A stretch of DNA of 64,000 bases from assembly GCF_002019645.1 (NCBI RefSeq), contig NZ_KV917374.1:4422661-4486660 (forward strand), given 5' to 3'. Below the pieces are notes generated by a model. That model was not told the origin of the DNA and made no database searches. It saw nothing but the letters and a program-made list of their open reading frames with translations. Made by a program: the position numbers and the translations under genes. Source of the DNA: Litchfieldia alkalitelluris. Its GTDB lineage: Bacteria > Bacillota > Bacilli > Bacillales > Bacillaceae_L. Below are positions 3,966 to 30,858 of this stretch, piece by piece. Numbering within the stretch: the stretch's first letter is position 1; each line of letters begins with the position of its first letter.

Positions 3966-4745
3966 TTCGGGACAGGTTCGGTCCTTTGTGAGAGGAAAAG
4001 CTGTCCGAACTTGGGTTGACTTTGGACAGGTTCGATCCTTTGTGACTCAAAGCTGTCCGATCCTCCCAGCACGACTTCGGACAAGTTCGATCCTCTTAGA
4101 CTAAAAGCTGTCCGAACCCCGAGCAACTTCGGACAACTTCAATCCTCTGAGACCAAAAGCTGTCCGAACCCCGAGCAACTTCGGACAACTTCAATCCTCT
4201 GAGACCAAAAGCTGTCCGAACCCAGCACGACTTCGGACAACTTCGATTCTCTGTGACCAAAAGCTGTCCGAACCCAGCACGACTTCGGACAACTTCGATC
4301 CTCTGAGACCAAAAGCTGTCCGAACCCAGCACGACTTCGGACAACTTCGATCCTCTTAGACTAAAAGCTGTCCGAACCCTGAACAACTTCGGACAGGTTC
4401 GACCCTCTGTGACCTAAAGTTGTCCGAACCCCGAGCAACTTCGGACAGCTTCAATCTTCTGAGACCAAAAGCTGTCCGAACCCTGAACAACTTCGGACAG
4501 GTTCGACCCTCTGTGACCTAAAGTTGTCCGAACCCCGAGCAACTTCGGACAGCTTCAATCTTCTGAGACCAAAAGCTGTCCGAACCCAGCACGACTTCGG
4601 ACAGGTTCGATCCTCTTAGACCAAAAGCTGTCCGAACCCCGCACGACTTCGGACAGGTTCGATCCGCTGAGACCAAAAGCTGTCCGAACCCCACGCAACT
4701 TCGGACAGGTTCGACCCTCTAAGACCCGAAGCTGTCCAAACCTTG
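3966..4745. repeat. Array 1: tandem 52-bp hairpin repeats, CTGTCCGAA family, about 15 units
   Basis: The core TGTCC starts at 4002, 4054, 4109, 4161, 4213, 4265, 4317, 4369, 4421, 4473, 4525, 4577, 4629, 4681 and 4733. The step is 52 bp except for one of 55. Each unit is an inverted repeat, AAGCTGTCCGAA then about 11 bases then TTCGGACA(A/G)CTT, joined by a linker such as CGATCCTCTGAGACCAAA. The stem is perfect GTCCGAA/TTCGGAC in nearly all units. No promoter or coding bias is evident. Short open frames across it are a by-product of the repeat. Confidence 0.95.
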
Positions 4746-4781
4746 AAGCGACAAAGCAACGGAAGCTAAAGCAACAAAAAG

Positions 4782-4818
4782 AGGTCATCTCTGAGGCAAA
4801 TTCCCCCTGAGATAACCC
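4782..4818 (-). terminator. Terminator after wrbA
   Basis: On the reverse strand GGTTATCTC-AGG pairs with CCT-GAGATGACC (one G-U pair), followed by TCTTTTTG. It lies directly beyond the wrbA stop and before array 1. Confidence 0.7.
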
Positions 4819-4829
4819 TTATAAAAATA

Positions 4830-5438
4830 TTACTGACTTCCTTTTTTTACATACTCAGCAATCGTAATCGTACGCTTCGCTTGATGTTTGACAGCTGCTT
4901 CCACATTCTCAACCATATTACCATCTTGAGTAACTGTCACACTCGTCCCATATGGATTCCCACCAGCTTCGAATGTTACCGGATCTGTATAACCCGGTGT
5001 GGCAACGATTGCTCCCCAATGATACATTGTCGTATATAATGATAATAATGTTGCCTCTTGGCCGCCATGGGGGTTTTGTGCAGAAGTCATCGCACTTACT
5101 ACCTTATTAACAAGTTTTCCATGAAACCAAAGGCCTCCAGCAGTATCTAAAAATTGTTTCATTTGGCTAGGCATGTTACCAAAACGGGTTGGCACACTGA
5201 AGATGATTGCATCAGCTTCATCAAGATCATCTAATGTCACTTCAGGAACATCCTTAGTTGCCTCTATGTGAGCTTTCCAATGTGGGTTGGATTCAATCGC
5301 TTCTTGTGGAGCTGTTTCAGGAACTTTTCTTAGCTTTACCTCAGCACCCGCTTCCTTTCCTGCCTCCTCTGCCCACTGAGCCAACTTATAATTTGTACCT
5401 GTTGAACTGTAATAAATAACTGCTAATTTTACGGTCAT
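4830..5438 (-). CDS. wrbA: NAD(P)H:quinone oxidoreductase, WrbA family (type IV)
   Basis: The 202-residue flavodoxin-like protein has the FMN phosphate-binding loop YYSSTGTNYKLA near the N-terminus and the WrbA signature SVPTRFGNMPSQMKQFLD, followed by GGLWFHGKLVNK. GGQEATLLSLYTTMYHWG is the typical active-site region. WrbA reduces quinones by two electrons in the cytosol and so avoids semiquinone radicals. The start ATG at 5438 has AAAGGAG upstream. The nearby dioxygenase, flavin reductase and NmrA-like reductase suggest an electrophile-defence neighbourhood, though each has its own promoter or terminator. Confidence 0.93.
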   Translation of the reverse strand: MTVKLAVIYYSSTGTNYKLAQWAEEAGKEAGAEVKLRKVPETAPQEAIESNPHWKAHIEATKDVPEVTLDDLDEADAIIFSVPTRFGNMPSQMKQFLDTAGGLWFHGKLVNKVVSAMTSAQNPHGGQEATLLSLYTTMYHWGAIVATPGYTDPVTFEAGGNPYGTSVTVTQDGNMVENVEAAVKHQAKRTITIAEYVKKGSQ

Positions 5439-5522
5439 TATTCAAAACTCCTTTTTCATGAAATAAATACCTATCTAGTGTTTACCTTGTAGAATACCTT
5501 AAACACATCTTTTGAAAATAAG

Positions 5523-5555
5523 AAAATTGGGTACACCATCTAGTTACCCAATTTT
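5523..5555 (-). terminator. Terminator after the flavin reductase gene
   Basis: AAATTGGGTA / TACCCAATTT form a near-perfect stem around an 11-base loop, with a T-rich tail on the reverse strand, just past the stop at 5571. Confidence 0.85.
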
Positions 5556-5570
5556 TCAACTTCCTATTCA

Positions 5571-6185
5571 TTATTTTGGCCTCTCGATGGTAAAAACCTC
5601 TCCAATTTTTGCATAATCGTTTCCAGCTAGGCGACTAACCGCTCCTAATCTTGCTTGATTCACTCGACCATTTTCATAAACTGTATCATCAATATGAAAC
5701 TGAACGACTCTTCCTATGACAAAATCGCAACCAGGCTTTTGCTCTCTTCCTCCTAGCTCAATAGCCTGATCAAGAATACATTCTAACCTGACCTTAGCTT
5801 CCACCACTCCAGGTATCTCTATTTTCGTGCTTGGAATAGGAGTTAGTTTTGCGAGAGTTACTTCACTTTGCTCTGGAGGAAGGCTTGCAGCAGTGATATT
5901 TATTTGATCAACATTATCTTCATCAACAATATGAACGACAAATTCCTTTTTATTTAAAATATTTCTGGCCGTGTCTTTTTGCTTGCCATCTCCACTTCGT
6001 TGAATGGAAAGTGAAATCATGGGAGGATTCGATGAAACAATATTAAAATAGCTAAATGGTGCACCATTTAACGTATTACTCTCTGATAAGGTTGTCACAA
6101 ATGCAATAGGTCTAGGAATAATACTTCCAATCATTAGCTTATAGCTATCTCTTTCTGAGATATCTTCCGAATTAATTGAAACCAA
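5571..6185 (-). CDS. Flavin reductase-like (FMN-binding split barrel) protein, YwrF-like
   Basis: The protein of about 204 residues contains LMIGSIIPRPIAFVTT and GAPFSYFNIVSSNPPMISLSI, which are hallmarks of the FMN-binding flavin-reductase-like domain (DIM6/NTAB group). B. subtilis YwrF is the closest named relative I recall. Such proteins reduce FMN or act as flavoenzymes with unknown substrates. Two TTG starts are possible: 6191 is three bases from AGAGGAG and 6185 is nine bases away, so I chose 6185. It is separated from the neighbouring NmrA gene by about 70 bases and has its own terminator. Confidence 0.85.
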   Translation of the reverse strand: MVSINSEDISERDSYKLMIGSIIPRPIAFVTTLSESNTLNGAPFSYFNIVSSNPPMISLSIQRSGDGKQKDTARNILNKKEFVVHIVDEDNVDQINITAASLPPEQSEVTLAKLTPIPSTKIEIPGVVEAKVRLECILDQAIELGGREQKPGCDFVIGRVVQFHIDDTVYENGRVNQARLGAVSRLAGNDYAKIGEVFTIERPK

Positions 6186-6257
6186 ATACAAGCACTCCTC
6201 TTAAACGTTAATCTTACTTTTCAACCTTAGGCTCATGTTACCACCGGTTCAAAGTTA

Positions 6258-7106
6258 TCACATCCAATGATGTTTAAAATCTTTTGCATACTCTTCAAAC
6301 TTAATGGGTTCTCTATTCAGTAGGTTTTGTGTCTCTTCTGTTACTTTTTCAGCTGTCCCCATCTTAGTAATTGCATATAACATGGTCATTACGTTTGCAA
6401 AATCTTTTCTGGTACCTCTTTTAATGATTGTTCTTCTAAACTCAAAAAAACCTGGATTTCTATAAGTAATTGTTCTTCCTAATACATTTGTAAGGATGTT
6501 AGAGACTTCGTAATAATCCAGAGCTTCACTTCCTGTTAATGTGTACGCTTTATTTAGATGATCTTCTTCGGTTAGACAAATGGAAGCTACAGATGCAATG
6601 TCTCTCGTATCAATAAAGCTCGTCCTTGCTTTACCAACCGGCATATATAATTCATCACGAAGTTTGATATCGTCACGGTGGGTTGTATTTAAGTTTTGCA
6701 TAAAGAAACTTGGTCTTAGAAAAGTATATGGGATTTCAAGTTCTTTTATTAAATCTTCTATTTTCCGATGTGGAACAACACGATTTCGTTCAACACCCAT
6801 TAAAGAAACGAAAACAATGTGACGAATTCCTTTTTCTTTTACTTTTAATAAAAAAGGCTTCATATCCTTTTGTGGCTTTGCTAGCTGAGGTGGACGAATT
6901 AGAAAAACGCGGTCAACCTCTTCAAGTGCTGAATCAAATGTCGTAGGATTAGTAAAATCAAATGAAACCCATTCCACCTTTTCCTCCGATTGCCTTTCCG
7001 TGAAAGCTGCAGCTAAAACCTTTTCATTGCGATTTATTAATTCTTCCACAACATATTTCCCTATATTTCCGGTTGCACCTGTAACAAGAATTTTCGATTT
7101 ACTCAT
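6258..7106 (-). CDS. NmrA-like NAD(P)-binding oxidoreductase
   Basis: The 282-residue atypical short-chain dehydrogenase has the dinucleotide-binding motif VTGATGNIGKYVVEEL at the N-terminus, with FVSLMGVERNRVVPHRKIE and YTFLRPSFFMQNL further on. This pattern is typical of NmrA/QOR2-type NAD(P)H-dependent quinone or aldehyde reductases and sensors. Its ATG at 7106 lies inside the end of the upstream MarR gene (8-base overlap), so the two are translationally coupled and probably share a promoter. The likely role is reduction of the compound sensed by the MarR partner; the substrate is unknown. Confidence 0.85.
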   Translation of the reverse strand: MSKSKILVTGATGNIGKYVVEELINRNEKVLAAAFTERQSEEKVEWVSFDFTNPTTFDSALEEVDRVFLIRPPQLAKPQKDMKPFLLKVKEKGIRHIVFVSLMGVERNRVVPHRKIEDLIKELEIPYTFLRPSFFMQNLNTTHRDDIKLRDELYMPVGKARTSFIDTRDIASVASICLTEEDHLNKAYTLTGSEALDYYEVSNILTNVLGRTITYRNPGFFEFRRTIIKRGTRKDFANVMTMLYAITKMGTAEKVTEETQNLLNREPIKFEEYAKDFKHHWM

Positions 7107-7551
7107 CAATCTCTTCTCCTTTTAGATTATCTCCTATTCTCTCTAAAAAACCTATTAATGCTTCCTTTTCAGCTTCAGTGAACCCCTTAAGCCCATCATT
7201 AACAGTGTCATCACTTACTTTTTCTAATAGAGGAATATACTCAACGGCAGAAGAACTCAATTCAATGAGCTGAGCTCTTTTATCAGTAGGGTGCAACTTC
7301 CTATTGATGAGCCCCTTATCCTCCAAACGTTTAAGGACTCCCGATATTGTTGGTTTATCCATATCTAATCTACTTGCTATCGAAGCCGCTTTGTAATGAT
7401 TAGGTGGAGATTTTAAGTGGTCTTGAATATGCAAATCTTTGATAACTCCCCATTGAGTGGTGGTAATCTGTTTGTCTTCGAGCCTCTTTGTTAACTTAAA
7501 TCTTAATAGCTTTGCATTTAGTTGTAATAAATACCCTATATTGTTATTCAT
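7099..7551 (-). CDS. MarR-family transcriptional regulator
   Basis: The 150-residue protein has a winged-helix DNA-binding domain (SIASRLDMDKPTISGVLKRLEDKGLINRKLHPTDKRAQLIELS) in the canonical MarR pattern, including the D-x-R wing DKRA. It is the first gene of a two-gene operon with the NmrA-like reductase. A perfect palindrome lies immediately upstream and covers the region just before its ribosome-binding site, so autorepression and control of the reductase are likely. The inducer is unknown. Confidence 0.9.
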   Translation of the reverse strand: MNNNIGYLLQLNAKLLRFKLTKRLEDKQITTTQWGVIKDLHIQDHLKSPPNHYKAASIASRLDMDKPTISGVLKRLEDKGLINRKLHPTDKRAQLIELSSSAVEYIPLLEKVSDDTVNDGLKGFTEAEKEALIGFLERIGDNLKGEEIDE

Positions 7552-7562
7552 CAGTTCGCCTC

Positions 7563-7586
7563 ATTTAGTTAGTGTACTAACTAAAT
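7563..7586 (-). promoter_or_regulatory. MarR operator (perfect palindrome)
   Basis: Eleven-base arms ATTTAGTTAGT and ACTAACTAAAT flank a GT centre. The palindrome starts 12 bases upstream of the MarR start codon and abuts its GAGGCG ribosome-binding site. Size and position are typical of an autoregulatory MarR site. Confidence 0.85.
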
Positions 7587-7734
7587 TATAAAGCACCTTC
7601 AATGTCCCCATCAACTGCCATTAAAAAAGATTGATAAAAAACAGGATGTAATTCACGACTTAGACAAAAAATAGCCAAATTCAATCTGGTTGTGGTACAT
7701 TTTGAAGAACAGACTAACGAAATAAGGGGATTTT

Positions 7735-8853
7735 ATGAATAAGATTAAAGCAATCTTAAGCTTTTTGGTAGTTCTCACTTTATTCCATCTACTCATTTTT
7801 TATATAGGCTGGAATGTTTGGCATTATCTACGAGTCGCTATCTCTTTCGATTTCCTTTACCCATTTATCGTTCTAATTTTCCTATTTTCATACGCATATA
7901 TAATCGGTCGTTTTGTTAAGTTTCTGTCCATCTTCCATACAATAGGATCAATTTGGATGGCGATCATACAGTACGCTGTTATCTTATTTCCCATAGCTAA
8001 TATATCCGTATTAATTTCAGTAGCTTTTTCTATTCCAACTGAAACTGCCATCTTATGGACAGGCCATGTGACCCTTATCGTATTCCTTCTCATTTTTGGA
8101 GTAGGCACCTTTAACGCATACAGTCCTGTAGTAAGGAATTATCAAATTAAGATCAATAAAACAACTGAAGCAATTTTTAAACTAAGGATTGCCATGGCTT
8201 CTGATATGCATTTTGGAACACTTTCGGATAAGAAACATGCAAGAAGACTTGTTAAAATAATAAATAATGAAAAGCCAGATATAATTCTTTTACCAGGAGA
8301 TATCATTGATGATGACCCTATTCCATTTATAAAAAAAGGGTTTGGAAAAATCTTAAGTGAATTACATGCACCTCTAGGTATTTATGGTGTTCTTGGCAAC
8401 CATGAATACTACGGTAGAGCTATTCCTACTTTTATGAAGGAAATGGAAAAGATAAATATCGACATCTTAACTGATGATGTAATTCAGATAAAGGAGAGCT
8501 TCTATTTAATTGGAAGAAAAGATAAAACCGATAAACAACGGTTGACGATCAAAGAGCTACTAGCCCACCCAACAATAAATCATTCAAAACCAATTATTAT
8601 GATGGACCACCAACCTTCTCAACTAAATGAAGCCATGCATGAAGGAGTAGATTTAATTTTATCTGGACACACTCATCGTGGCCAGATGGCTCCTAACCAT
8701 TTGATTACACGCAAAATCTTTGAGCTTGATTGGGGTTATTTACAAAAAAATCAACTACATGCCATTGTTTCTTCAGGGTTTGGTTTTTGGGGGCCACCGA
8801 TTCGTCTGGGCAGTAGGTCGGAAATTGTCATCATTGATGTGAATTTTAACTAA
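7735..8853 (+). CDS. Membrane-anchored metallophosphoesterase, YkoQ-like
   Basis: The 372-residue protein has four or five hydrophobic segments in its first 130 residues, followed by a calcineurin-like phosphoesterase domain with all the metal motifs: SDMHFG, PGDIIDDD, GNHEYYG, MDHQPSQ and SGHTHRGQ. This architecture matches B. subtilis YkoQ and related membrane phosphoesterases thought to act on lipid-linked or cell-surface phosphates. The substrate is not known. The ATG at 7735 has AAGGGGATTTT before it. It is monocistronic and ends at a shared terminator. Confidence 0.88.
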   Translation: MNKIKAILSFLVVLTLFHLLIFYIGWNVWHYLRVAISFDFLYPFIVLIFLFSYAYIIGRFVKFLSIFHTIGSIWMAIIQYAVILFPIANISVLISVAFSIPTETAILWTGHVTLIVFLLIFGVGTFNAYSPVVRNYQIKINKTTEAIFKLRIAMASDMHFGTLSDKKHARRLVKIINNEKPDIILLPGDIIDDDPIPFIKKGFGKILSELHAPLGIYGVLGNHEYYGRAIPTFMKEMEKINIDILTDDVIQIKESFYLIGRKDKTDKQRLTIKELLAHPTINHSKPIIMMDHQPSQLNEAMHEGVDLILSGHTHRGQMAPNHLITRKIFELDWGYLQKNQLHAIVSSGFGFWGPPIRLGSRSEIVIIDVNFN

Positions 8854-8871
8854 TAGAAAAGGATTTATAAC

Positions 8872-8905
8872 AAAAAATGCTTGCCACATGGGCCAAGCAT
8901 TTTTT
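8872..8905. terminator. Bidirectional terminator
   Basis: AAAAAATGCTTG pairs with CAAGCATTTTTT, separating two convergent genes (phosphoesterase and SpoIID-like). Confidence 0.9.
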
Positions 8906-8920
8906 CTTTGACAATATGGA

Positions 8921-10198
8921 CTATTTAATTTCACCTATCTCCATTATTTCTGTTTCTGGAAAATAATGCTGTAAAATCGCTTTATAACTTTTCCCTCTTT
9001 CACCCATTACACTTGCTCCCCATTGACTCATTCCAACGCCATGTCCATACCCTCTACCCTTCATAATATAAAAGTCGTCTTTTTCTTCTAAAGAATCCAC
9101 TAAATAACTCCTAAAAATATCTCCACCAATCATTGGGCGAATTTTATTGATATTTACATCCTCTAATTTAAACTGCTCTAACATAATCGTCCCATCAAAT
9201 AGACGGTGGAAAAACTCCACTGTGACTGACCCTTTTTTCGTTCGACCTGATGCGTTTGTGTCTTCATCTATTGCTAAATGGGTTATTCCAACGATTTTGA
9301 TTTCTCCAAGGTATCCATTCTTTTTTAAATAGGATTTCATCGTCCCTGCAATTCGATCATCCATCTCAACTAAATCATCCCAAGCTGTTGGATGATCCCA
9401 ATCAATACCTTCAATTTGAAGTTGATTTCGATGAAGCATAAACTCCCACGGTTGTACCGGATCAAAAGGATCTATTTTTACGGGATAATAGACTTTTGGA
9501 TCTCCTCCCCAGACATTTGCGTTGCTCTCTGTTATTCCGCCATTACTTGCCGAATAAAAGGCTGGAATCGGTTTGTTTTCAAAAGTAATGATTTCACCCT
9601 TTGTTTCTTCTACAGCTTGAGTTGTTTTTTTGTCCCAGCTAAAACCGCCATATACTTGATACTTAATCGTATCATCCATGTCCTGATTCATTTGAATGAA
9701 GGCGTAGGTTCTTGCTGCTAATGCTTGTGCCTTTAAGCTTTCAAGAGACCAAGCTGGAAAAACTTCAAAAGGAACAACTCCTTTTAGGTAGTCCTCTAAA
9801 GGAAGCTGATTCACTGGTCTAATGTAGGAATTTTTTTCTTGTAGAAATTCAACCACACCCAAATACGGTTTATCATTAATAGTAATATAATGCTCCGTAT
9901 CATACACATTTGGAATTAACTGAAACGAACCGTTAATTTGCTGCTCCTCATGTTTACTTTTCAAGTAAAATATTCCTCTTTTCAGAACTAAACGATATTC
10001 CTCTCCTTCTTTAATTGAAATACTTTCATCAAGTGTTAGATACTCACCATGTATCTTGAATGTAATTTCATTTGTTTCACCCAAGTCCTTAACTAATTTT
10101 ACTTTTACCATTTCTTCTGCCTCAATGTGCAGAGGGAGAAACAGTGAACATATTATTATGATTGGAAGTATTAAATATCTCATATTCATACTTTGCAC
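8921..10198 (-). CDS. SpoIID/LytB-domain protein (secreted)
   Basis: The 425-residue protein has an N-terminal signal sequence (MRYLILPIIIICSLFLPLHIEA) and a SpoIID domain: PLEDYLKGVVPFEV, SLESLKAQALAARTYAF, AFYSASNGGITE and, at the C-terminus, GRGYGHGVGMSQWGA. These contain the catalytic-Glu region and the conserved GHGVGMSQ motif of SpoIID, the lytic transglycosylase that degrades denuded glycan strands in engulfment. This gene is not beside spoIIQ or spoIIID, so it is a paralogue (LytB-like amidase enhancer or cortex/germination factor) rather than spoIID itself. The GTG at 10198 is the open-frame start; an internal ATG at 10189 or 10183 is equally possible. Confidence 0.85.
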   Translation of the reverse strand: MQSMNMRYLILPIIIICSLFLPLHIEAEEMVKVKLVKDLGETNEITFKIHGEYLTLDESISIKEGEEYRLVLKRGIFYLKSKHEEQQINGSFQLIPNVYDTEHYITINDKPYLGVVEFLQEKNSYIRPVNQLPLEDYLKGVVPFEVFPAWSLESLKAQALAARTYAFIQMNQDMDDTIKYQVYGGFSWDKKTTQAVEETKGEIITFENKPIPAFYSASNGGITESNANVWGGDPKVYYPVKIDPFDPVQPWEFMLHRNQLQIEGIDWDHPTAWDDLVEMDDRIAGTMKSYLKKNGYLGEIKIVGITHLAIDEDTNASGRTKKGSVTVEFFHRLFDGTIMLEQFKLEDVNINKIRPMIGGDIFRSYLVDSLEEKDDFYIMKGRGYGHGVGMSQWGASVMGERGKSYKAILQHYFPETEIMEIGEIK

Positions 10199-10328
10199 GT
10201 TTATCTCAATTAATATGTTTTGTTTATTTTGAAGCTACTCTTCGATTTGCAAAAATATTAATAGAAGTTTTTCAGTTTTCATGATAAAAATAAACTATCT
10301 CGTTATCACTTTAGAAATGGAGCAACAA

Positions 10329-12413: not shown

Positions 12414-12414
12414 T

Positions 12415-13430: not shown

Positions 13431-13479
13431 TAATCCATAGTCTGCAAACTTTTGCTATTTAAGATAAATGGGGGGTACT

Positions 13480-14220
13480 ATGAAAAATAAAAAACCAGTG
13501 ATTGGCATTACAGGAGCCTATGTAAACCATAACCACTACATGGAAGGTGTTTATGTCCATCATGATTACCATAAAAGTATCGCTGCAAATGGAGGAATTC
13601 CTATTGTTCTTCCCTATATTAATGAAAACTTAAGCATAGAAAGTGCTGAATTATGTGATGGCATCATTTTAAGTGGAGGAGAAGATGTTGATCCTCAGTT
13701 TTATGGCCAAGACCCTCATCCCAACTTAGGAGCAACCATTCCTGAAAGAGACATAGCCGAAATGGCTCTGGTACATTATGCCATAAATAACAATATTCCC
13801 CTTCTCGCCATTTGTAGAGGGGTACAAATATTAAATGTAGCGTTAGGCGGAACATTGATCCAAGATATCCCTGCCCAATGGGCTAACCCCATTAAACATA
13901 CTCAAATAGTAGAAAGAAAGAGGGATACACATTTTATAAGAATCGATAAAGACAGTTACCTCTACTCAATCATCGGAGAAGAAACAGTAAGAGTAAATAG
14001 CCTTCATCACCAAGCGATTGACAAGCTTTCGCCTCACTTAAAAACTGTGGCAACAGCCTCAGACGGGATGATTGAAGCTGTAGAATTAATTGAAAGTAAC
14101 ACCTTCACTATCGGTGTCCAATGGCATCCAGAATCAATGAGCAGTCATAACCAGAAAATGAATAAACTTTTCAATCATTTTGTTGAAAATTGTGTAAAAA
14201 AAGTGCAGACACCTGCATAA
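13480..14220 (+). CDS. Class I glutamine amidotransferase-like peptidase (PuuD/YvdE type)
   Basis: The 246-residue protein has a triad nucleophile in LLAICRGVQILNVALGG and the His-Glu pair in GVQWHPES. Both are characteristic of gamma-glutamyl-gamma-aminobutyrate hydrolase-like enzymes; DGIILSGGEDVDPQFYG is also typical. Family members cleave gamma-glutamyl amides of GABA and related amines. Nothing around it points to a polyamine pathway, so the substrate is open. The ATG at 13480 follows GGGGGG by four bases. The near-perfect promoter suggests strong constitutive expression. Confidence 0.88.
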   Translation: MKNKKPVIGITGAYVNHNHYMEGVYVHHDYHKSIAANGGIPIVLPYINENLSIESAELCDGIILSGGEDVDPQFYGQDPHPNLGATIPERDIAEMALVHYAINNNIPLLAICRGVQILNVALGGTLIQDIPAQWANPIKHTQIVERKRDTHFIRIDKDSYLYSIIGEETVRVNSLHHQAIDKLSPHLKTVATASDGMIEAVELIESNTFTIGVQWHPESMSSHNQKMNKLFNHFVENCVKKVQTPA

Positions 14221-14399: not shown

Positions 14400-14582
14400 A
14401 TGGACCCCAGTGATAAAGAAGCCTCAAAAATTTACCGGAAACTAATTACTTCAGATGATTTTAAAGCTTTCATTTTATATGAAAAGCTTAATACACAAAT
14501 GAGAATGAAGGTAATGACTAAGCTCAATCAAAATGGCTCTAGTCAAGCTAATGTATTATTAAAAAAGTTAGAGAAATTTTAA
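14400..14582 (+). CDS. Small conserved-looking hypothetical protein (60 aa)
   Basis: I do not recognise a family. It is a charged, probably helical 60-residue cytosolic protein (MDPSDKEASKIYRKLIT start; ends LLKKLEKF). It has its own promoter, AAGGG eight bases before the ATG and a strong terminator nine bases after the stop, so it is a complete independent transcription unit and not a chance frame. The function is unknown. Confidence 0.75.
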   Translation: MDPSDKEASKIYRKLITSDDFKAFILYEKLNTQMRMKVMTKLNQNGSSQANVLLKKLEKF

Positions 14583-14749: not shown

Positions 14750-16225
14750 CACACGAAAGCTGTCCGAACACAGGGCTACTTCAGACAACTTGGCCTTGTA
14801 AAGCACGAAAGCTGTCCGAACACAGAGCTACTTCAGACAACTTTGCTTTGCTATCCACAAAAACTGTCCGAACACAGAGCTACTTCAGACAACTTTTCCT
14901 TGTAAAGCACGAAAGCTGTCCGAACACAGAGATACTTCAGACAACTTGGCCTTGTAAAGCACGAAAGCTGTCCGAACACAGAGATACTTCAGACAACTTT
15001 GCTTTGCTATCCACAAAAGCTGTCCGAACACAGAGATACTTCAGACAACTTGGCCTTGTAATTCCCAAAAGTTGTCCGAACACCAGGCTACTTCAGACAA
15101 CTTTTCCTTGTAAAGCACGAAAGCTGTCCGAACACTAGGCTACTTCAGACAGCTTGGCCTTGTAATTCCCAAAAGTTGTCCGAACACCCGGCTACTTCAG
15201 ACAACTTTTCCTTGTAAAGCACAAAAGCTGTCCGAACACCAGGCTACTTCAGACAACTTTTCCTGGTAAAGCACGAAAGCTGTCCGAACACTAGGCTACT
15301 TCAGACAACTTGGCCTTGTAAAGCACGAAAGCTGTCCGAACACAGAGCTACTTCAGACAACTTTGCTTTGCTATCCACAAAAACTGTCAGAACACAGAGC
15401 TACTTCAGACAACTTTTCCTTGTAAAGCACGAAAGCTGTCCGAACACTAGGCTACTTCAGACAGCTTGGCCCTGTAATTCCCAAAAGTTGTCCGAACACT
15501 GGGCTACTTCAGACAGCTTGGCCTTGTAATTCCCGAAAGTTGTCCGAACACTGGGCTACTTCAGACAACTTGGCCTTGTAAAGCACGAAAGCTGTCCGAA
15601 CACAGAGCTACTTCAGACAGCTTTGCTTTGCTATCCACAAAAGCTGTCCGAACACAGAGATACTTCAGACAACTTTTCCTGGTAAAACACAAAAGCTGTC
15701 CGTACACCAGGCTACTTCAGACAACTTGGCCTTGTAATTCCCAAAAGTTGTCGAACACCAGGCTACTTCAGACAACTTTTCCTGGTAAAGCACGAAAGCT
15801 GTCCGAACACTAGGCTACTTCAGACAGCTTGGCCTTGTAATTCCCGAAAGTTGTCCACTGGGCTACTTCAGACAACTTGGCCTTGTAAAGCACGAAAACT
15901 GTCCGAACACAGAGCTACTTCAGACAGCTTTGCTTTGCTATCCACAAAAGCTGTCCGAACACAGAGCTACTTCAGACAACTTTTCCTTGTAGAGCACGAA
16001 AACTGTCCGAACACAGAGCTACTTCAGACAGCTTTGCTTTGCTATCCACAAAAGCTGTCCGAACACAGAGCTACTTCAGACAACTTTTCCTTGTAAAGCA
16101 CGAAAATTGTCCGAACACAGAGATACTTCAGACAGCTTGGCCTTGTAAAGCATGAAAGCTGTCCGAACACCAGGCTACTCCAGACTATTTCAGATAACTT
16201 CTCCTTCAAATACTTAAAGCTGTCC
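14750..16225. repeat. Array 2: tandem 52-bp hairpin repeats, CTGTCCGAA family, about 28 units
   Basis: TGTCC cores at 14761, 14813, 14865 and 14917 show a 52-bp step that continues across 1.4 kb, with a few small indels near 15750 and 15855. Each unit is AAGCTGTCCGAA - CAC(A/C)(G/A)(A/G)G(C/A)TAC - TTCAGACA(A/G)CTT plus a linker of one of a few types: TTTGCTTTGCTATCCAC, TTTCCTTGTAAAGCACG, TTGGCCTTGTAAAGCACG or TTGGCCTTGTAATTCCC. The linker types alternate irregularly, which suggests repeated unequal exchange. In almost every unit the second arm carries TTCAGAC instead of TTCGGAC. Confidence 0.95.
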
Positions 16226-16238
16226 AAACTCTAGGTGC

Positions 16239-17027
16239 TTAATCAAATATATAATTAAAATAGTGTTCTTTTAATTCATCAGATAGCAAATGCGATACTG
16301 GAACTACTTTTATATGCTTCTTATTGAATTCATCCATCGATTGAATGATACCTGTTGAACAAATCTTTCCCGTAAGGCCTACATGACCGATCGCAACTCC
16401 CCTATTATGCTTTTCTGTAATTTTAGCCAATTTACTCATCTGTTTTCTCACATAAGCGACAGATGAAATATCATCAAGAAATACATCTCTTTTAATTAAA
16501 GGGACCCCTAATTCTTCAGCTATTTCCGGAAATTTTGAATTTCCACTTGTCCCACTATCAACAATATACATTTGATGTTCTTTAGCAACTTGGACAATCA
16601 CTCTGACAATTCGTTCATCTTCAACCACAAGGGATCCCATATGATTGTTTAAGCCTTTTGCAAATGGGACACTGTCTATTGCCTTCTCCACTCTTACTTT
16701 GACTTCTTCTGAAGATAGGTTTTTTATTATTGGATTAGGCCCTAACCAAGAGAGTTTTCCCTTTTTAGGCTGCATAGGTAGATGAATCATGACCTCAAAA
16801 CCATTTTCATAAGCCCAACTTGCGTGCTCGGTTGATTTTTCTGTAAATGGCATAACTGCTGCTGTTATTGGAACATTTCCATTTAGAAAATCAGCAACCC
16901 CCTCAATACCACCGCCAAAATCATCAATGATAATTGCTGCTTGAAGTTCTTCCGAGTCAGCATAAACAGGATAAAATGTTCCTAGAGCGATAAAAACTGT
17001 TAAAACGAGTGTGATTAAATATCTCAT
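16239..17027 (-). CDS. Divergent polysaccharide deacetylase (YibQ family), exported
   Basis: The 262-residue protein has a signal peptide (MRYLITLVLTVFIALGTFYPVYA). The domain then starts with AAIIIDDFGGG and continues with PITAAVMPFTEKS, VMIHLPMQP, LNNHMGS and GHVGLTGK, the conserved motifs of the divergent polysaccharide deacetylase family (PF04748). The Asp pair in IIDDFG and the His residues of IHLPM and NNHMGS are the likely metal ligands. Substrates of this family are poorly defined cell-surface glycans. The ATG at 17027 follows GGGGG. No terminator is visible after the stop; array 2 begins within 15 bases and would form its 3' untranslated region. Confidence 0.87.
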   Translation of the reverse strand: MRYLITLVLTVFIALGTFYPVYADSEELQAAIIIDDFGGGIEGVADFLNGNVPITAAVMPFTEKSTEHASWAYENGFEVMIHLPMQPKKGKLSWLGPNPIIKNLSSEEVKVRVEKAIDSVPFAKGLNNHMGSLVVEDERIVRVIVQVAKEHQMYIVDSGTSGNSKFPEIAEELGVPLIKRDVFLDDISSVAYVRKQMSKLAKITEKHNRGVAIGHVGLTGKICSTGIIQSMDEFNKKHIKVVPVSHLLSDELKEHYFNYIFD

Positions 17028-17156
17028 CTTATCCCCCTTAAGTTTTTGTATTAATTTCCCCCCCACTTCTTTTTTTAATACACTTAATAAAATAAGTCCA
17101 AACACCAAATACCTTGATCAGCCTCTAAAAGAATTGGAGAATATATATAACTTTAT

Positions 17157-22353: not shown

Positions 22354-22387
22354 ACTCTTCTTTTTAATATCTTCACAAAAAAATTAC

Positions 22388-22522
22388 TCACTTAATACTA
22401 ACTTTTTTTTCGATTGATTTGCGGCTATTCACAAACAGGATTTTGGGGCCACAATCGCAAAGCTTAGAATGTTTTAATTGACGGATTGTTTTTTGACAAG
22501 TCGGACATTGATTATTTTTCAT
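22388..22522 (-). CDS. Zinc-ribbon small protein (44 aa)
   Basis: The reverse strand encodes MKNNQCPTCQKTIRQLKHS with a following LCDCGPKILFVN, giving CPTC and CDC knuckles that could bind one zinc. A purine-rich AAAAGGAG lies 13 bases upstream, rather far. The protein is short but has clear metal-binding organisation, so I consider it real. The family and role are unknown. Confidence 0.55.
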   Translation of the reverse strand: MKNNQCPTCQKTIRQLKHSKLCDCGPKILFVNSRKSIEKKVSIK

Positions 22523-22620
22523 TAGCTTAACTCAGCTCCTTTTGCTATTCTATAAATCTAATTATACGCAGAACTAAATTAAAATCAATAGTAAATTATA
22601 ATAATTATAAATAAGGTAAA

Positions 22621-22658
22621 AAAGAAGAGGATTTTATCTTGCTAAAACCCTCTTCTTT
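22621..22658 (-). terminator. Terminator after the htrA-like gene
   Basis: AAAGAAGAGG / CCTCTTCTTT stem; on the reverse strand it is followed by TTTTTTACC. Confidence 0.88.
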
Positions 22659-22662
22659 CACT

Positions 22663-24020: not shown

Positions 24021-24180
24021 TTTTTAACCTCCATACTTTTCTGCTCTATGGGTACATCATATCCAGCAAATATGAAGAATTTATTAACAAACATGTAAGA
24101 GTGTAAGAAAAATTTTAAAATAGAGGTCTTCACATTCATTCCATTTTTTCACTGTTTCTTCCAGATTAAGCAATATTTTC

Positions 24181-24197
24181 GTCATAATTTATTCATA
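24181..24197. promoter_or_regulatory. Predicted response-regulator site upstream of the ABC operon
   Basis: GTCATAATTTATTCATA contains TCATA twice, 11 bp apart, as expected for an OmpR-type regulator dimer. The same 17-mer with one change is found upstream of the response-regulator gene at 28722. It lies 65 bases before the permease start. Confidence 0.7.
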
Positions 24198-24261
24198 CTC
24201 TTTGGATAAGCTTTAGGTATTGATTAATTCAATACCCCATAAAAAGCAAAGGAGAACAGAA

Positions 24262-25710: not shown

Positions 25711-25721
25711 GAGTGAAAAAT

Positions 25722-26423
25722 ATGAGTGCTTTATTAGAATTTAATTCTATCAATTATTGGTATAAGCATGAAAATAAGAAACATGATATCTTAAAAAATA
25801 TAAATGTAGGTTTTGAAAAAGGAACATTTTATACAATTGTTGGTCCATCAGGTTCTGGTAAGACAACTTTTTTAGCTTTAGCAAGTGCTCTAGATGTTCC
25901 TAAAGATGGAACCATCTTTTATGATGGAAAGGATATAAGAAAAATAGGTTTATCTAAATTTAGGAACAAATATGTATCCATTGTTTTTCAATCTTATAAT
26001 CTACTTCCATATATGTCAGGCTTACAAAACGTTGTAACAGCTATGGAAATCACAGGGTCACCACAAAAAAATAAAAAGCAATACGCTTTAGACGTTTTAC
26101 AAAAGGTCGGGATTGACGAAAAGCAAGCCAAACAAAAAGTGCTCACCTTAAGTGGTGGACAACAACAGCGTGTCTCAATAGCACGTGCTTTGAGCTGCGA
26201 ATCGGATTTGATTGTCGCGGATGAACCTACTGGAAACCTAGATGAGGATACAGCAAAAGAGATTATACGTCTGTTTCAAGATTTAGCACATAAAGAAAAC
26301 AAATGCATTATTGTGGTAACACATGATCTAAGTATTTCCTCTATTTCAGATATAAATGTAAAGCTTTCTAAAGGAGAAATAAAGATTGTAAAAAATAAAA
26401 ATACTAAATTGGTATCAATCTAA
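25722..26423 (+). CDS. ABC transporter ATP-binding protein (LolD/MacB type)
   Basis: The 233-residue ATPase has Walker [16 protein letters not shown], a Q-loop at [17 protein letters not shown], signature [15 protein letters not shown], Walker [15 protein letters not shown] and the switch His in VVTHD. The DEPTGNLD form is characteristic of the MacB/LolD export subfamily. It energises the permease encoded directly upstream. AGGAG precedes the ATG at 25722. It ends at a terminator shared with the convergent kinase gene. Confidence 0.93.
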
Positions 26424-26460
26424 AAGCCCAATTATTTTCAGTCAAAGTCCAAATTAAGTG

Positions 26461-26494
26461 AAAAATCCTAGTAAATATATTCACTAGGATTTTT
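26461..26494. terminator. Bidirectional terminator
   Basis: AAAAATCCTAGT / ACTAGGATTTTT stem between the convergent ABC operon and kinase gene. Confidence 0.92.
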
Positions 26495-26496
26495 CA

Positions 26497-27918
26497 TCAT
26501 AAAGTTTCACTTTTCTCTGGAAATCGAATCGTAAATTTCGTTCCCTTGTCCTTTTCACTGCTGACACTAATTTCTCCTTGATGGAGTTCCACTAGTTTTT
26601 TTACTATAGAAAGACCAAGACCAGACTCACCATAGGGATTGGTTGTTCTAGATATGTCTGCTTTGTAAAATCGATGCCATATTCGTTCAATTTCTGTTGG
26701 ATCGATCCCCATACCTGTATCTTCAATTTCTATTACCACTTCTTTATATCCGAATTTTCCTCTTAAGTAAATCACACCATTTGACGTAAACTGAATACTA
26801 TTCTTCGTAATATTAATCAAAATTTGCATGAGACGATCATAATCTGCGTAAATTTCTAGTTCATCAGGAACTTCAATGACTAATTTATTATTTTTATCTT
26901 CAGCTTGCTGAACAAGTTGTTCTTGGATAATCTCAAACACTTCATTTAATTGAATCAATTCTTTTGTTAACAAAACCTGATTCGATCGTATTTTTTCATA
27001 GTCAAGATTCTCATTTACCAGACGAATAAGTCTTTTCGTTTCTTGATTAACGAGATAAATCGCTCTTTGCTTCTCATTTTCTGGGATCATGTTATCTCTA
27101 ATTCCTTCAACCATTCCACTAATTGTTGTCAAAGGGGTCCTGAGTTCATGAGAAACATCCGCAAAAAATTGTCTTCTACGATTTTCAAGACTCTCTATTT
27201 CTAGTTGCGATTTTCTTAGTATGCCAGCCATATTATTAAAATCATTTGCGAGCTCCCCTATTTCATCAAAACTTGACGAAGGAACATTCACATCGTAGTT
27301 ACCTGTAGAGATTTTTGAAGTCGCTTCGCGAATCCGTTGAATTCTTTTCACATGAATTCTAGACAAAATCCAGCTTAGTAGTAACGCAATGATTAAAGCA
27401 ACGATCATTGTATAAAATAAATATTGATTTATTTGACTAATCATTTCTCTTGAACCACTTACAGGTGAAATTAACAGAACACCACCCAGAAATTGACCAT
27501 TATTGATATAGGGTACGGCGACAAAAGAAACATCCTGCTCAAATCTCTTTTTAAAATCACGTTTTACTACAACAGCTTCACCATTCCTTAGCTTGAATAG
27601 TTCATCTTCCGTCCACCTGATCATCGTAATCCGGCCTTGCTGAGGGTATAAAGCATTAATTTCTTCATTGAAAACTAAATATTGAATGTTCCTTGACCTT
27701 AAAACAAGACTATACTGATTAGCTGTTTGATTTTGGCGGTCCGGCATTTTTTGTAGGTCTTCTAAAATACTCACACCATAATCGGTCAGTTCATCCGCTT
27801 TATTCTGATAAACCAATGTTTCCACATAATGAGCAAATAAAATACTTAATATGGAGAAAGCAACGATTAAAATGCTAATATGACTAGCAAGTAGTTGATA
27901 CAAATATCTAATTCGCAT
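26497..27918 (-). CDS. Sensor histidine kinase
   Basis: The 473-residue kinase has two membrane spans (about 11-30 and 166-186) around a 135-residue extracytoplasmic sensor domain. A HAMP linker (to about 245), a dimerisation domain with phospho-His257 in FADVSHELRTPL and a C-terminal ATPase with N (NITKNSIQF), G1 (EDTGMGID) and G2 (GESGLGLSIVKKL) boxes follow. It overlaps the response-regulator gene by 11 bases. The kinase and the ABC pair end tail to tail, which with the shared upstream site suggests the transporter is its target. I cannot assign a named subfamily; it is not CssS-like in layout. Confidence 0.93.
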   Translation of the reverse strand: MRIRYLYQLLASHISILIVAFSILSILFAHYVETLVYQNKADELTDYGVSILEDLQKMPDRQNQTANQYSLVLRSRNIQYLVFNEEINALYPQQGRITMIRWTEDELFKLRNGEAVVVKRDFKKRFEQDVSFVAVPYINNGQFLGGVLLISPVSGSREMISQINQYLFYTMIVALIIALLLSWILSRIHVKRIQRIREATSKISTGNYDVNVPSSSFDEIGELANDFNNMAGILRKSQLEIESLENRRRQFFADVSHELRTPLTTISGMVEGIRDNMIPENEKQRAIYLVNQETKRLIRLVNENLDYEKIRSNQVLLTKELIQLNEVFEIIQEQLVQQAEDKNNKLVIEVPDELEIYADYDRLMQILINITKNSIQFTSNGVIYLRGKFGYKEVVIEIEDTGMGIDPTEIERIWHRFYKADISRTTNPYGESGLGLSIVKKLVELHQGEISVSSEKDKGTKFTIRFPEKSETL

Positions 27919-28609
27919 TTACTTCCACCGATTCATCAAACTTGTAACCAACTCCCCAAACAGTATGAAAAAATGGTTGGTTATCAGTTCCTACCTTTTT
28001 TCTCAACCTCTTTATATGAACATCAACCGTTCGTTCATCTCCATAAAATTGATAACCCCAAACTCTTTCTAATAACTGTTCTCTAGAAAACACTTGTCGA
28101 GGGTGCTGGGCAAAATAGTAGAGTAAATCAAATTCCTTTGGGGTTAAGTTGGTAATAGGCGTATTATTTAGAAATACTTCTCTAGTTTCTCTACTGATTT
28201 TAAAACATTGTGTCTCTAAATAAGTCGTATCATGTTCTTCATTCACTTTGTTATACCTTCTTGTCACTGCTCTAATACGAGCCATCAATGCTAGTGGGCT
28301 AAATGGTTTTGTCACATAATCATCAGCACCCATTTCAAGTCCTAACACTTGATCTGACTCACTATCTTTTGCCGTTAGCATAATAATCGGGACAGTGCTT
28401 TTATCTGCTCTAATCTTCCTGCAAATTGTGACCCCATCCATACCAGGTAGCATCCAATCAACAATCACAACATCAAAAGACTCACTGGTAAATTTGTTAT
28501 ACCCTTCTATACCATCATGAACAAAATGTCCTTGAATATCTTCTTTCAGAAAAAACATCTCTAACATTGAACAAACACTTTCGTTATCCTCTATGACTAA
28601 AATTTTCAT
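27908..28609 (-). CDS. OmpR-family response regulator
   Basis: The 233-residue protein has a receiver domain with acidic residues in VIEDNES, phospho-Asp51 in VIVDWMLPGMDG and Lys in DYVTKPFSP, then a winged-helix domain with LTPKEFDLLYYFAQHPRQVFSREQLLERVWGY and DERTVDVHIKRLRKK. AGGAGG precedes the ATG at 28609; a longer in-frame extension upstream has no ribosome-binding site. It is co-transcribed with the kinase. Its likely binding motif, TCATA repeated every 11 bp, occurs 113 bases upstream of itself and upstream of the ABC operon. Confidence 0.93.
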   Translation of the reverse strand: MKILVIEDNESVCSMLEMFFLKEDIQGHFVHDGIEGYNKFTSESFDVVIVDWMLPGMDGVTICRKIRADKSTVPIIMLTAKDSESDQVLGLEMGADDYVTKPFSPLALMARIRAVTRRYNKVNEEHDTTYLETQCFKISRETREVFLNNTPITNLTPKEFDLLYYFAQHPRQVFSREQLLERVWGYQFYGDERTVDVHIKRLRKKVGTDNQPFFHTVWGVGYKFDESVEVNAN

Positions 28610-28721
28610 AACAATCCTCCTACTCACTACCACATCATTCTTCAAACTTAAAACGAAATGAACTGGAAGGCAACTGTTTTCTACTATCTTCCCCAAATGT
28701 TACAGATTGGTTAACTATTTG

Positions 28722-28738
28722 GTCATAATTTGTTCATA
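28722..28738. promoter_or_regulatory. Predicted response-regulator site upstream of the two-component operon
   Basis: GTCATAATTTGTTCATA differs at one base from the site at 24181-24197. It is framed by TTAACTAT (28711) and ATAGTTAA (28735), which form an inverted repeat around it. Autoregulation is inferred. Confidence 0.65.
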
Positions 28739-28741
28739 GTT

Positions 28742-28766
28742 AAAAAGAAAACCCCAACAAATGGGG
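28742..28766 (-). terminator. Terminator-like hairpin left of the acyl-CoA dehydrogenase gene
   Basis: CCCC-ATTTGTT-GGGG on the reverse strand is followed by TTTTCTTTTTA. It lies about 115 bases past the stop at 28883. Confidence 0.6.
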
Positions 28767-28882
28767 CTCTAAGCTAAGGTGCTTTTCTATAAATTTATTG
28801 TAAATCAATCATCTATATAAAAATGCCGATTACCATTGAAAAAAGGTAATTATCTTAAGAACAATAAAGTTTCGAAAATAAC

Positions 28883-30034
28883 CTAAGTTAATGACTTAAA
28901 TGCAGCATTCGCAAGGTTTAAAATTGTCATATCATCCATTGGAGGATTATGTAGGCCAGCTCTTACATCTCGATAATAACGCTGTAACGGATTTGATCGT
29001 TGAAGACTTTTAGCCCCTACTATACGCATTGCTTTATCGACAACCGAAATAGCTGTATTTGTTGCCATATACTTGACTACCCCTAGTTCAGAGGTGAAAT
29101 GATTCTTTGTTGTAGCCTCATCCCATTCTTTCGCAACTGAATACATGAAGTGACGGGCTTGCATTAATTCTGCATCCATTTCTCCAACTAAGCGTTGTAC
29201 ATTTGGTAAATCCTTTATCGTACCTTTAATACTGTTAGGTGAATACTCATTTGCAAACTTAACCGCATAGTCCCTAGCAGCAAGGGCAATACCAAGATAG
29301 CACGCTGGTATGTGCAAAAGCCACCCATTTGGTGTTGTATTTCTTTTTGTCATCATATCAACTAGATTTTCGTTCGACACTTTTACATTCTCTAGAATTA
29401 AATCATGACTTCCAGTACCTCTCATTGAGATGGTGTCCCAGGTTTCATTGATGGATAATCCGGGGGAATCTTTATGAATCGCAAACTCTGCTATTTGATG
29501 TGAATCTTCAATTGAAGAAATCACAAGAAAATAATCTAGCGCTGGCGACATTGTTGTAAAAGTCTTTCTACCATTTACAATCCAACAGTCTCCTTCTTTT
29601 TTGGCCATTGTTTGGGGTTTTCCACCTCTAGTAGGACTTCCTGTTTGGGGCTCTGTTGCAGCGCGGTTAATTAGTGCACCGTTCAAGACCTCGGATGCCA
29701 TTTGTTCGATTCTCTCTTCCTTCCAGTCACGCTTTTCATTTATATCCATCATTACTCCAAGATGCCATCCCATTGATAAGGCTGTTGAACCATCTCCTTG
29801 TGCCAAACGTTCTTGAAATAATAAAAACTCATACAACGAAATGTCTTCCCCACCAAATCTTTTCGGGACAGTTAGCTTCGTATAGCCAATCTCTTTTAAA
29901 TCCTCTATATTTTCAAAAGAAAAACAGCCCTTTTCATCATTTATTGCTGCACGTTCATTAAATCGGTCAGCTAAGCTAGAAATTTTTGAATAAAGCTCAC
30001 GTTGTTTATCAGTTTTAATAAACGAAATCGTCAT
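28883..30034 (-). CDS. Acyl-CoA dehydrogenase-like flavoprotein (YdbM/SfnB-like)
   Basis: The 383-residue protein has the acyl-CoA dehydrogenase fold: AATEPQTGSPTRGG and WIVNGRKTFTTMSPALDYFLV in the middle domain, and LGVVKYMATNTAISVVDKAMRIVGAKSL in the C-terminal helical domain. The TMSPALDYF and RYYRDVRAGLHNPP motifs match the group containing B. subtilis YdbM and the sulfur-related SfnB/DszC flavoproteins rather than beta-oxidation enzymes. A role in organosulfur use is plausible and fits the SAM-riboswitch operon 5 kb away, but this is inference. Array 3 starts 150 bases upstream of its start. Confidence 0.82.
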   Translation of the reverse strand: MTISFIKTDKQRELYSKISSLADRFNERAAINDEKGCFSFENIEDLKEIGYTKLTVPKRFGGEDISLYEFLLFQERLAQGDGSTALSMGWHLGVMMDINEKRDWKEERIEQMASEVLNGALINRAATEPQTGSPTRGGKPQTMAKKEGDCWIVNGRKTFTTMSPALDYFLVISSIEDSHQIAEFAIHKDSPGLSINETWDTISMRGTGSHDLILENVKVSNENLVDMMTKRNTTPNGWLLHIPACYLGIALAARDYAVKFANEYSPNSIKGTIKDLPNVQRLVGEMDAELMQARHFMYSVAKEWDEATTKNHFTSELGVVKYMATNTAISVVDKAMRIVGAKSLQRSNPLQRYYRDVRAGLHNPPMDDMTILNLANAAFKSLT

Positions 30035-30185
30035 TTTCCCCTCTCCTTTTTCACTATTCGATTCTACTAATTTATGTTCATTTTCTCACAAATATCCTTT
30101 TAAAGCCAAGGTTACGCTTGGTGTAATAAGCTGTATTCTGACTACTTTTAGCGTCTGGCTTCTAAAACTGCATACTTGGAGTGTG

Positions 30186-30858
30186 TTCAGACAGCTTTTG
30201 CCTCCTAGGACCTGAACCTGTCCAATCTTGACTCGTGTTCAGACAGCTTTTGCTTCTTCGCTCATGAACCTGTCCGAACTTGACTCGGGTTCAGACAGCT
30301 TTTGCCTCCTAGGACCTGAACCTGTCCAAACTTGACTCGGGTTCAGACAGCTTTTGCCTCCTGGCCCCCGAAGCTGTCCGAACTTAGCTCAGGTTCAGAC
30401 AGCTTTTGCTTTCTGGCCACCGAAGCTGTCCGAACTTAGCTCGGGTTCAGACAGCTTTTGCCTCCTGGCCCCCGAAGCTGTCCGAACTTAGCTCGGGTTC
30501 AGACAGCTTTTGCCTCCTAGCCACCGATCCTGTCCGAACTTGACTCGGGTTCAGACAGCTTTTGCCTCCTGGCCACCGAAGCTGTCCGAACTTAGCTCGA
30601 GTTCAGACAGCTTTTGCCTCCTAGGACCTGAACCTGTCCAAACTTGACTCGGGTTCAGACAGCTTTTGCTTTCTGGCCACCGATCCTGTCCGAACTTGAC
30701 TCGGGTTCAGACAGCTTTTGCCCGCTAGCCACTGAACCTGTCCGAACTTGACTCGGGTTCAGACAGCTTTTGCCTCCTAGCCACCGTACCTGTCCGAACT
30801 TGACTCGGGTTCAGACAGCTTTTGCCTCCTAGCCAGCCGCTAAACCTGTCCAAACTTA
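30186..30858. repeat. Array 3: tandem 52-bp hairpin repeats, CTGTCCGAA family, 13 units
   Basis: CAGACAGC occurs at 30188, 30240, 30292 and onwards to 30812, which is exactly 12 steps of 52 bp. Units read AAGCTGTCCGAAC - TTAGCTCGG - GTTCAGACAGCTT with linkers such as TTGCCTCCTGGCCCCCG or TTGCCTCCTAGGACCTG. The 13-bp arms are longer than in arrays 1 and 2. As in array 2, the second arm has A where G would pair. The right end runs into a palindromic dispersed repeat. Confidence 0.95.

Follow-up and report, generated by a model that had tools for sequence, protein, structure and literature searches.

What keeps a 52-bp hairpin repeat in three separate arrays within 64 kb of one Bacillaceae chromosome, with arms that hardly vary and loops that differ from array to array? 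The stretch in question, here called the window, comprises 64,000 nucleotides of the forward strand of Litchfieldia alkalitelluris (G000:C1:4422661-4486660, in a genome, G000, of 5.43 Mb). The repeat family, F1, follows the pattern TGTCYGAA-N11-TTCRGACA at a 52-bp step, each unit being made of 12-bp arms (AAGCTGTCCGAA / TTCRGACARCTT, with variants), a loop of 11 bp and a linker of 17 bp. Here, we found that arrays of this kind adjoin genes for proteins with a NERD (nuclease-related) domain and that protein and array sequence diverge together, and we consider it rather probable that the arrays serve as DNA recognition arrays of these proteins.

NERD is the commonest Pfam domain (4/89, in four genomes) among the 89 genes that point their 3' end at an F1 array no more than 450 bp away. 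Of the 12 best loci of homologues of the F1-adjoining NERD gene, 11 carry an array of 52, 104 or 105 bp 3' of the gene, the twelfth lying at a contig end. Twenty NERD paralogues (43-56% identical, seven genomes) were then retrieved blind to what flanks them, and Tandem Repeats Finder (TRF) reported an array of 51-53 bp at 19 of them, the remaining one being cut short where its contig ends. Four more NERD loci came from a scan of 398 genomes of the phylum, three with an array (only 2.1 copies in G062) and one, a distant homologue in G267, without. For this clade A as a whole, the array lies on the 3' side in 35 of 36 loci, a count that leaves out G267, the cut locus L288 and one duplicate. At the settings used for the controls, a 52-type array is found within 400 bp on the 3' side in 34/36 and on the 5' side in 0/36; at L296 the array follows at 876 bp, and at L300 the contig ends 125 bp past the gene. 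Removal of the four discovery loci leaves 30/32. Control genes have a 52-type array in 39 of 869 cases, a background that is overstated because the control contains stretches picked for arrays, and the loci of a further NERD clade, C, in 1 of 29 (Fisher p ~4e-16 for clade A vs clade C, computed with 35/36).

In clade B, the adjacency is mostly on the 5' side. The three clade-B genes of L. alkalitelluris (~325-341 aa) have arrays of ~20-21-bp steps directly upstream, one of them belonging to the family F4 (Table 1). Over 30 clade-B loci, one best match per genome out of 72 genomes with a match, a ~21-bp-step array lies within 200 bp in 22 (21/29 without the gene of L. alkalitelluris), and in 18 of these 22 it is upstream; the corresponding counts are 0/29 for clade C and 30/869 for control genes. 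A weaker repeat-lag score gives 26/30 for clade B vs 1/29 for clade C. Clade C, without arrays as a whole, is an internal control. Six of the seven NERD genes of L. alkalitelluris adjoin an array, the one beside its clade-C gene perhaps by chance, and its second clade-A gene is followed by an array with the core of another 52-bp family, F2, which also occurs in the window. Two repeats were seen in passing near other NERD genes: a 21-bp-step repeat (TTCGGTCAACTTTGAAAAAC) 276 bp 3' of the clade-C gene at L388 (G071), the only clade-C locus besides that of L. alkalitelluris with such a signal, and an 82-bp repeat, apparently of ~20-bp steps, 5' of the distant G267 gene (L322:2549-2787), as in clade B.

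Protein and array sequence co-diverge. Across 31 loci, NERD identity correlates with array similarity (Pearson 0.69, Spearman 0.35, 0/5000 permutations). An F1-clade NERD, defined by 60% identity or more, is present in 6/6 genomes with at least 5 strict F1 matches vs 6/94 others (p=8e-7), both cut-offs having been set after seeing the data. Of the six genomes that have such a gene and fewer than 5 matches, G066, G012, G013 and G015 have diverged cores beside it; G010 shares the 8-bp core of F1 but differs in the outer bases, and the strict pattern does not detect it; in G086 the array beside the gene cannot be seen. In G099, the NERD-linked array (L303) resembles, by eye, a dispersed array elsewhere in the same genome (L236). 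It is probable to about the same degree, as one part of the joint reading, that each array family has a partner NERD gene next to one of its arrays, while the genome can hold further arrays of that core at other places.

The partner gene encodes a NERD domain, a zinc ribbon and a helix-turn-helix-like C-terminus. PF08378 (NERD) matched with 52-74 bits in the seven clade-A and -B members scanned (Pfam cut-off 22.1). Nuclease sites of the PD-(D/E)XK type consist of conserved acidic residues, (D/E)XK and Q. In 29 aligned clade-A proteins E42, D74, K89 and Q117 are invariant (29/29), and the (D/E) before K89 is kept in 28/29, with N in L312; we read these residues as a putative PD-(D/E)XK nuclease site. 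Invariant in 29/29 are also four zinc-ribbon cysteines, and the conserved C-terminus, TT..I.EWC....K.T..RIL.K....G....YY, is the part that we read as helix-turn-helix-like. For this C-terminal region, the second of two structure models, built from 3 sequences, shows three helices with short strands (block means of the predicted local distance difference test, pLDDT, of 61-89 for residues 211-302). A search of the PDB by sequence with one NERD protein gave no match, and the matches of a profile, to zinc ribbons and others, were weak (best E 0.1). The clade-C protein of L. alkalitelluris, the only member of its clade in the domain scan, ends in a topoisomerase-type zinc ribbon and is without the clade-A C-terminus.

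Within the arrays, arms and period are kept while loops drift. Between arrays of L. alkalitelluris, identity is 92.8% for the 8-bp arms, 81.8% for the adjoining 5 bp of linker on each side, 38.7% for loops and 30.7% for mid-linkers; the loop value is lowered by same-strand comparison, loops being directional, and the arm value is partly built in, as arms served to recognise the arrays (the flanking 5 bp only in part), which counts against the proposed reading. The corresponding values within arrays are 97, 92, 82 and 81%. Arm spacing is 19 in 454/464 steps and 33 in 450/468 steps in a sample of 1.264 Mb of this genome (60 stretches, each of 20 kb, of which 13 were picked for a known array, plus the window). 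Arms at 93% and adjoining bases at 82% vs mid-linkers at 31%, with spacing held across loci, led us to reject a neutral minisatellite. By eye, we noticed no half-decayed F1 arms in the 52-bp arrays of the sequence-blind TRF list for this sample. At the edges, the last unit has core mismatches at 8.9% of positions vs 2.2% inside (24 arrays).

Is the 52-bp step peculiar to F1? In the same sample, TRF listed 47 rows of period 52, 2 of 53, 1 of 51 and 6 of 104 (rows can overlap), and these include the families F2 and F3, which have GATTC in common, form one cluster and may be related to each other; F1 and F4 are unlike them in sequence. Further 52-bp arrays of other sequence occur in other genomes. 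Among 97 non-redundant non-F1 arrays with periods of 24-230 bp, 20 have a period of 52, 2 of 51, 1 of 53 and none of 54-59. In G044 and G095, F2-like cores follow one another at intervals of 104, 156 or 260 bp, once 207. In F4, the commonest same-strand lags (21, 42, 62/63, 83, 104, 125 and 146) fit multiples of 20.8 bp, i.e. two turns of 10.4 bp, and the composite periods of ~21-bp-step arrays include 40-42, 62-63, 83, 104, 124-125, 166 and 186-187. The array periods fit whole helical turns: they are either 51-53 bp (five turns) or ~20.8-bp steps (two turns), and they read out the ~10.4-bp helical repeat from genome sequence. As side observations, the F4 arrays in L219 and L223 look as if interrupted by insertion-sequence-like stretches, and a relative (G051, L273) has 37-bp repeats with GCGTGTCAGACACC in four small arrays within 20 kb.

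We propose that the F1 NERD protein would bind the TGTCYGAA arms with its C-terminal domain and that the bound molecules would be aligned along a single face of the helix, which would account for the register of five (or two) turns. Nicking or cutting at bound arms could then cause an array to win or lose entire units through slippage or recombination, such that intact units would be amplified in the middle of the array and edge units would rot, and the nuclease step might, on rare occasions, seed a new array. More tentatively, and with slightly less than even confidence, we speculate that NERD/zinc-ribbon/helix-turn-helix-like proteins form a large, so far undescribed class of nuclease-plus-array systems in Bacillales, in which every paralogue would have a DNA core of its own that it evolves with and would maintain arrays of this core in helical phase, beside its gene and chromosome-wide, through repeated site-specific nicking and unit amplification, with several such systems per genome, each having its own sequence.

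Several observations weigh against this proposal. The structure models are poor (mean pLDDT 35 from a single sequence, 47 from 3 sequences), and Foldseek, with these poor models as queries, gave no fold match at E <=0.001. The correlation of protein and array is carried by pairs above ~55% identity; below 50%, array scores are flat (6.8, 7.0). Inverted arms reach p<=0.05 in only 19/32 NERD-linked units, and the period is therefore more general than the palindrome. The array at L320 has only 2.1 copies. Loops in edge units diverge as well (21% vs 13% inside, 24 arrays), so that decay at the edges is not confined to the arms. Loops and linkers also differ between dispersed arrays, and recent copying between loci is thus not visible, blocks of one insertion-split array excepted. 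The observations that fit least are the orphan F1 matches in genomes without an F1-clade NERD (G002 4, G007 1), the G267 homologue without an array on its 3' side, three clade-B loci (L344, L352, L361; 3/30) with neither an array nor a lag signal, and the families F5, which has no dispersed cluster in the 1.264 Mb sampled, and F3, whose arrays have no clear partner. A clade-C NERD lies beside one F3 array; as the other 28 clade-C loci have no 52-type array (1/29 in all), we rejected it as the F3 partner.

Could the NERD protein merely bind? The arrays would then be platforms, i.e. nucleoid-organising, insulating or topological sites whose arms and spacing are kept by selection at each locus. 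Arms that stay alike while loops drift are what sites selected singly would show, some arrays persist at the same locus across genomes, and in L. alkalitelluris convergent gaps between genes are enriched, holding 10/26 F1 blocks vs 99/648 gaps without F1 arrays (divergent gaps hold 3/26 vs 125/648), an enrichment not seen at F1 loci of other genomes (9/52). The absence of visible recent copies between loci argues against brisk spreading and is compatible with a pure platform. Neither the F1 array, by pattern or by A2 sequence, nor the clade-A protein had a match in the plasmid, phage and viral collections searched, which led us to reject a phage or plasmid origin and which also suits a platform. 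Yet four putative nuclease residues are invariant in 29/29 paralogues, F1 is patchy even inside the genus (0 matches in the congener G001, 4 in G002, hundreds in L. alkalitelluris), and dozens of arrays of one family seem beyond the need of a regulator. We regard the platform as unlikely, though it is the strongest of the rivals.

A toxin-antitoxin or defence module, in which the array checks or guides the NERD nuclease as a DNA decoy or through an array RNA (RNA antitoxins are known from type III systems), appears to us distinctly improbable. A gene with an adjoining array is a familiar layout for such modules, several diverging NERD paralogues occur per genome, and a scan of four NERD proteins gave three with a weak resemblance to the NERD portions of the defence-system proteins PglW, MkoA or MAD6; this similarity is limited to the NERD region and far under curated cut-offs, however, an RNA antitoxin would leave the DNA-helical-turn periods and the dispersed arrays unexplained, and the lack of plasmid and phage matches in the same collections speaks against a module of this kind. 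We give the least credit, very little indeed, to RNA hairpins that would act on transcripts from within the 3' untranslated regions. It is true that the genes within 450 bp face F1 arrays with the 3' end in 89 cases and with the 5' end in 55, and that many loops have a direction (G...G or C...C ends) which, in an unexplained way, follows the transcription of co-directional neighbours 22 to 7 (p=0.008), with 10 to 1 in L. alkalitelluris and 12 to 6 elsewhere (L031-L110). But G-U-type arm mismatches show no bias to the transcribed strand (21 to 15, p=0.4), a null result on which this role was rejected, unrelated hairpins would have no reason for a common 52-bp step, and the arrays of clade B consist of direct repeats and precede the gene in 18/22. 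Covariance models of Rfam, searched over the window, gave no array match at the gathering score.

How does the proposed nuclease-plus-array pairing compare with known systems? The nearest likeness is with the repetitive extragenic palindromes (REP, with their composite elements, BIME) and their associated tyrosine transposases (RAYT, TnpA_REP): as PMC2817692 has it, repeat abundance there follows the presence of the partner, protein and repeat co-evolve, and the partner gene lies beside its own repeats. Dispersed extragenic palindromic repeats, an adjoining partner gene, co-variation and partner-linked abundance are common to both. The partner here, in contrast, is a NERD/zinc-ribbon/helix-turn-helix-like protein and not a Y1 transposase, the repeats form long tandem arrays with helical-turn periods, and the clade-A array lies on the 3' side only, whereas the RAYT gene is flanked by two inverted REPs. 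Membership was rejected on G099 (a draft of 100% completeness), which has 51 forward and 59 reverse F1 matches and 0 Y1_Tnp (PF01797), a domain otherwise found in 85/100 genomes. By analogy, the NERD-array system would work like REP/RAYT; it is not a member. With clustered regularly interspaced short palindromic repeats (CRISPR), the system shares a regular tandem array beside a nuclease-like gene; a constant repeat with unique spacers was not found, the differences between arrays in loops and linkers recurring within each array, and one genome has dozens of arrays. Plasmid iterons and phased repressor sites are binding sites placed whole helical turns apart, as here; the present arrays, unlike those, are dispersed on the chromosome and have a partner with a nuclease-type domain. 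Among miniature inverted-repeat transposable elements (MITEs), bcr1 is a single unit of ~155 bp. Such MITEs, too, are short repeats of Bacillales that lie between genes, do not code and have inverted arms; the present system differs in its arrays of 52-bp units and in its partner gene in the same genome. PMC3733652 names bcr1 of the Bacillus cereus group, and neither the excerpts from that paper nor those from PMC12802215 and PMC12567373 link NERD to tandem arrays.

In the open-access PubMed Central papers searched, which do not extend to most subscription journals, we found no description of NERD-linked tandem arrays. F1, reported in an earlier note on this DNA, is one of many families of regularly spaced repeats in soil bacilli; that such families typically lie next to a nuclease-like gene of their own points to a pairing of protein and DNA array that has not been described. 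If the proposed reading is true, it would give a role to NERD, a widespread domain of so far uncertain function, and explain many intergenic repeat families of Bacillaceae together. It would also supply dozens of natural protein/DNA-site pairs of differing specificity and a second system, unrelated to RAYT/REP, in which the maintenance of extragenic palindromes can be tested.

Is F1 limited to the window? It is not, as F1 occurs at hundreds of sites in the genome and in other Bacillaceae. Genome-wide, the hairpin pattern (<=3 mismatches) gives 540 forward and 533 reverse matches, largely the same sites since the motif is near-palindromic, and 0 for a backwards control; the 1.264-Mb sample holds 968 cores in 28 F1 blocks, of which some are the two halves of an array split by an insertion. 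The many genome copies expected by the earlier note are therefore there. Active spreading, which the note named beside maintenance, was not evident: loops and linkers are only 39 and 31% identical between arrays, with no recent copying visible. The pattern (<=2 mismatches) was matched in 8/100 genomes, L. alkalitelluris included. A scan of GTDB species genomes gave at least 80 F1 loci (the best 80 of 115 stretches), nearly all in genomes that we take to be Bacillaceae and kin; as the scan fixed the F1 spacing beforehand, it is no evidence for the period, which the TRF results are. Among the matches listed are Mesobacillus, Neobacillus, Cytobacillus, Texcoconibacillus, Evansella, Halalkalibacter, Robertmurraya and others, and two F1-bearing contigs labelled Chryseobacterium sp. 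ISL-80 were taken for a mislabel. Some F1 arrays hold their place across genomes. ISL-37, ISL-45 and M. subterraneus all have one between what we presume to be hemL- and spoVID-like genes, and C. oceanisediminis and the ISL-80 contig both have one that lies between a presumed CoA-binding gene and a presumed cdaR-like gene; at the site equivalent to A2 in G001, between homologues of the same flanking genes, an A2-type array is absent. In L. alkalitelluris, a near-identical insertion (translated identity ~99%) breaks two F1 arrays, at C1 1959389-1960895 (L203) and at 4705527-4707033 (L179/L180), and 2/89 proteins flanking F1 arrays are Mutator-type transposases.

Within the window, the three arrays of one hairpin family described in the earlier note were recovered by a fuzzy arm search, by TRF and against a shuffle control: a three-arm F1 pattern (<=3 mismatches) has 99 matches in the window vs 0 in 100 dinucleotide-preserving shuffles. 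Its unit counts (15, 28 and 13) are correct within one, and it rightly placed the arrays between genes, set them apart from CRISPR and saw that units resemble each other more inside an array than across arrays. A coding repeat is also rejected, as 52 is not a multiple of 3. The note missed the fourth 52-bp array, of F2, the rhythm common to other families and the pairing with NERD. The step in the window is 52 save at three places (55, 51 and 48), degenerate half units lie at the array edges, and the fuzzy arm search returned one isolated, chance-like F1-arm match at 14428.

Table 1. Repeat arrays of the window, array families and NERD genes of L. alkalitelluris; positions are those of the window unless a genome coordinate is given
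Feature	Position	Units, step or sequence	Fuzzy arm search	TRF copies (period 52)	Neighbours
F1 array A1	3966..4745	14 full hairpin units + degenerate ends	14 at 3998-4711	13.9	DinB-like gene (3256-3750 -); 3' end of FMN-reductase-like gene (4830-5438 -)
F1 array A2	14752..16228	28 units	28 at 14757-16190	27.7	gap between convergent genes: peptidase C26-like (13468-14220 +); polysaccharide-deacetylase-like (16239-17108 -)
F1 array A3	30185..30857	12 full units + leading half unit	12 at 30215-30821	12.9	acyl-CoA dehydrogenase-like (28883-30034 -); MMPL-like (31297-32928 -)
F2 array	48872..49269	52-bp step; CATTCCCTTT...AAAGGGAATCA, sequence unrelated to F1		7.7	
F2 family		core AAAGGGAATC; 52-bp step			
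F3 family		core CTATGATTCA; 52-type			
F4 family		ATACGGCG; direct repeats every ~21 bp, 104 in all			
Second clade-A NERD gene	G000:C1:2152171-2153067				F2-core array follows
Clade-B NERD gene	genome 569958				F4 array directly upstream
Clade-B NERD gene	genome 1156750				~20-21-bp-step array directly upstream
Clade-B NERD gene	genome 2064298				~20-21-bp-step array directly upstream

The window also holds a dispersed, hairpin-rich repeat of ~215 bp (CTCCTGCGGGATC...GAGACCCC...GCGACGAGGAGGCTCA...) at 30870-31200 and 42750-43238, tandem in places, and an element resembling it occupies the A2-equivalent site of the congener G001 (L284:783-1499). The sole Rfam match in the window is an S-adenosylmethionine (SAM) riboswitch on the minus strand at 36064-36175 (89.7 bits).

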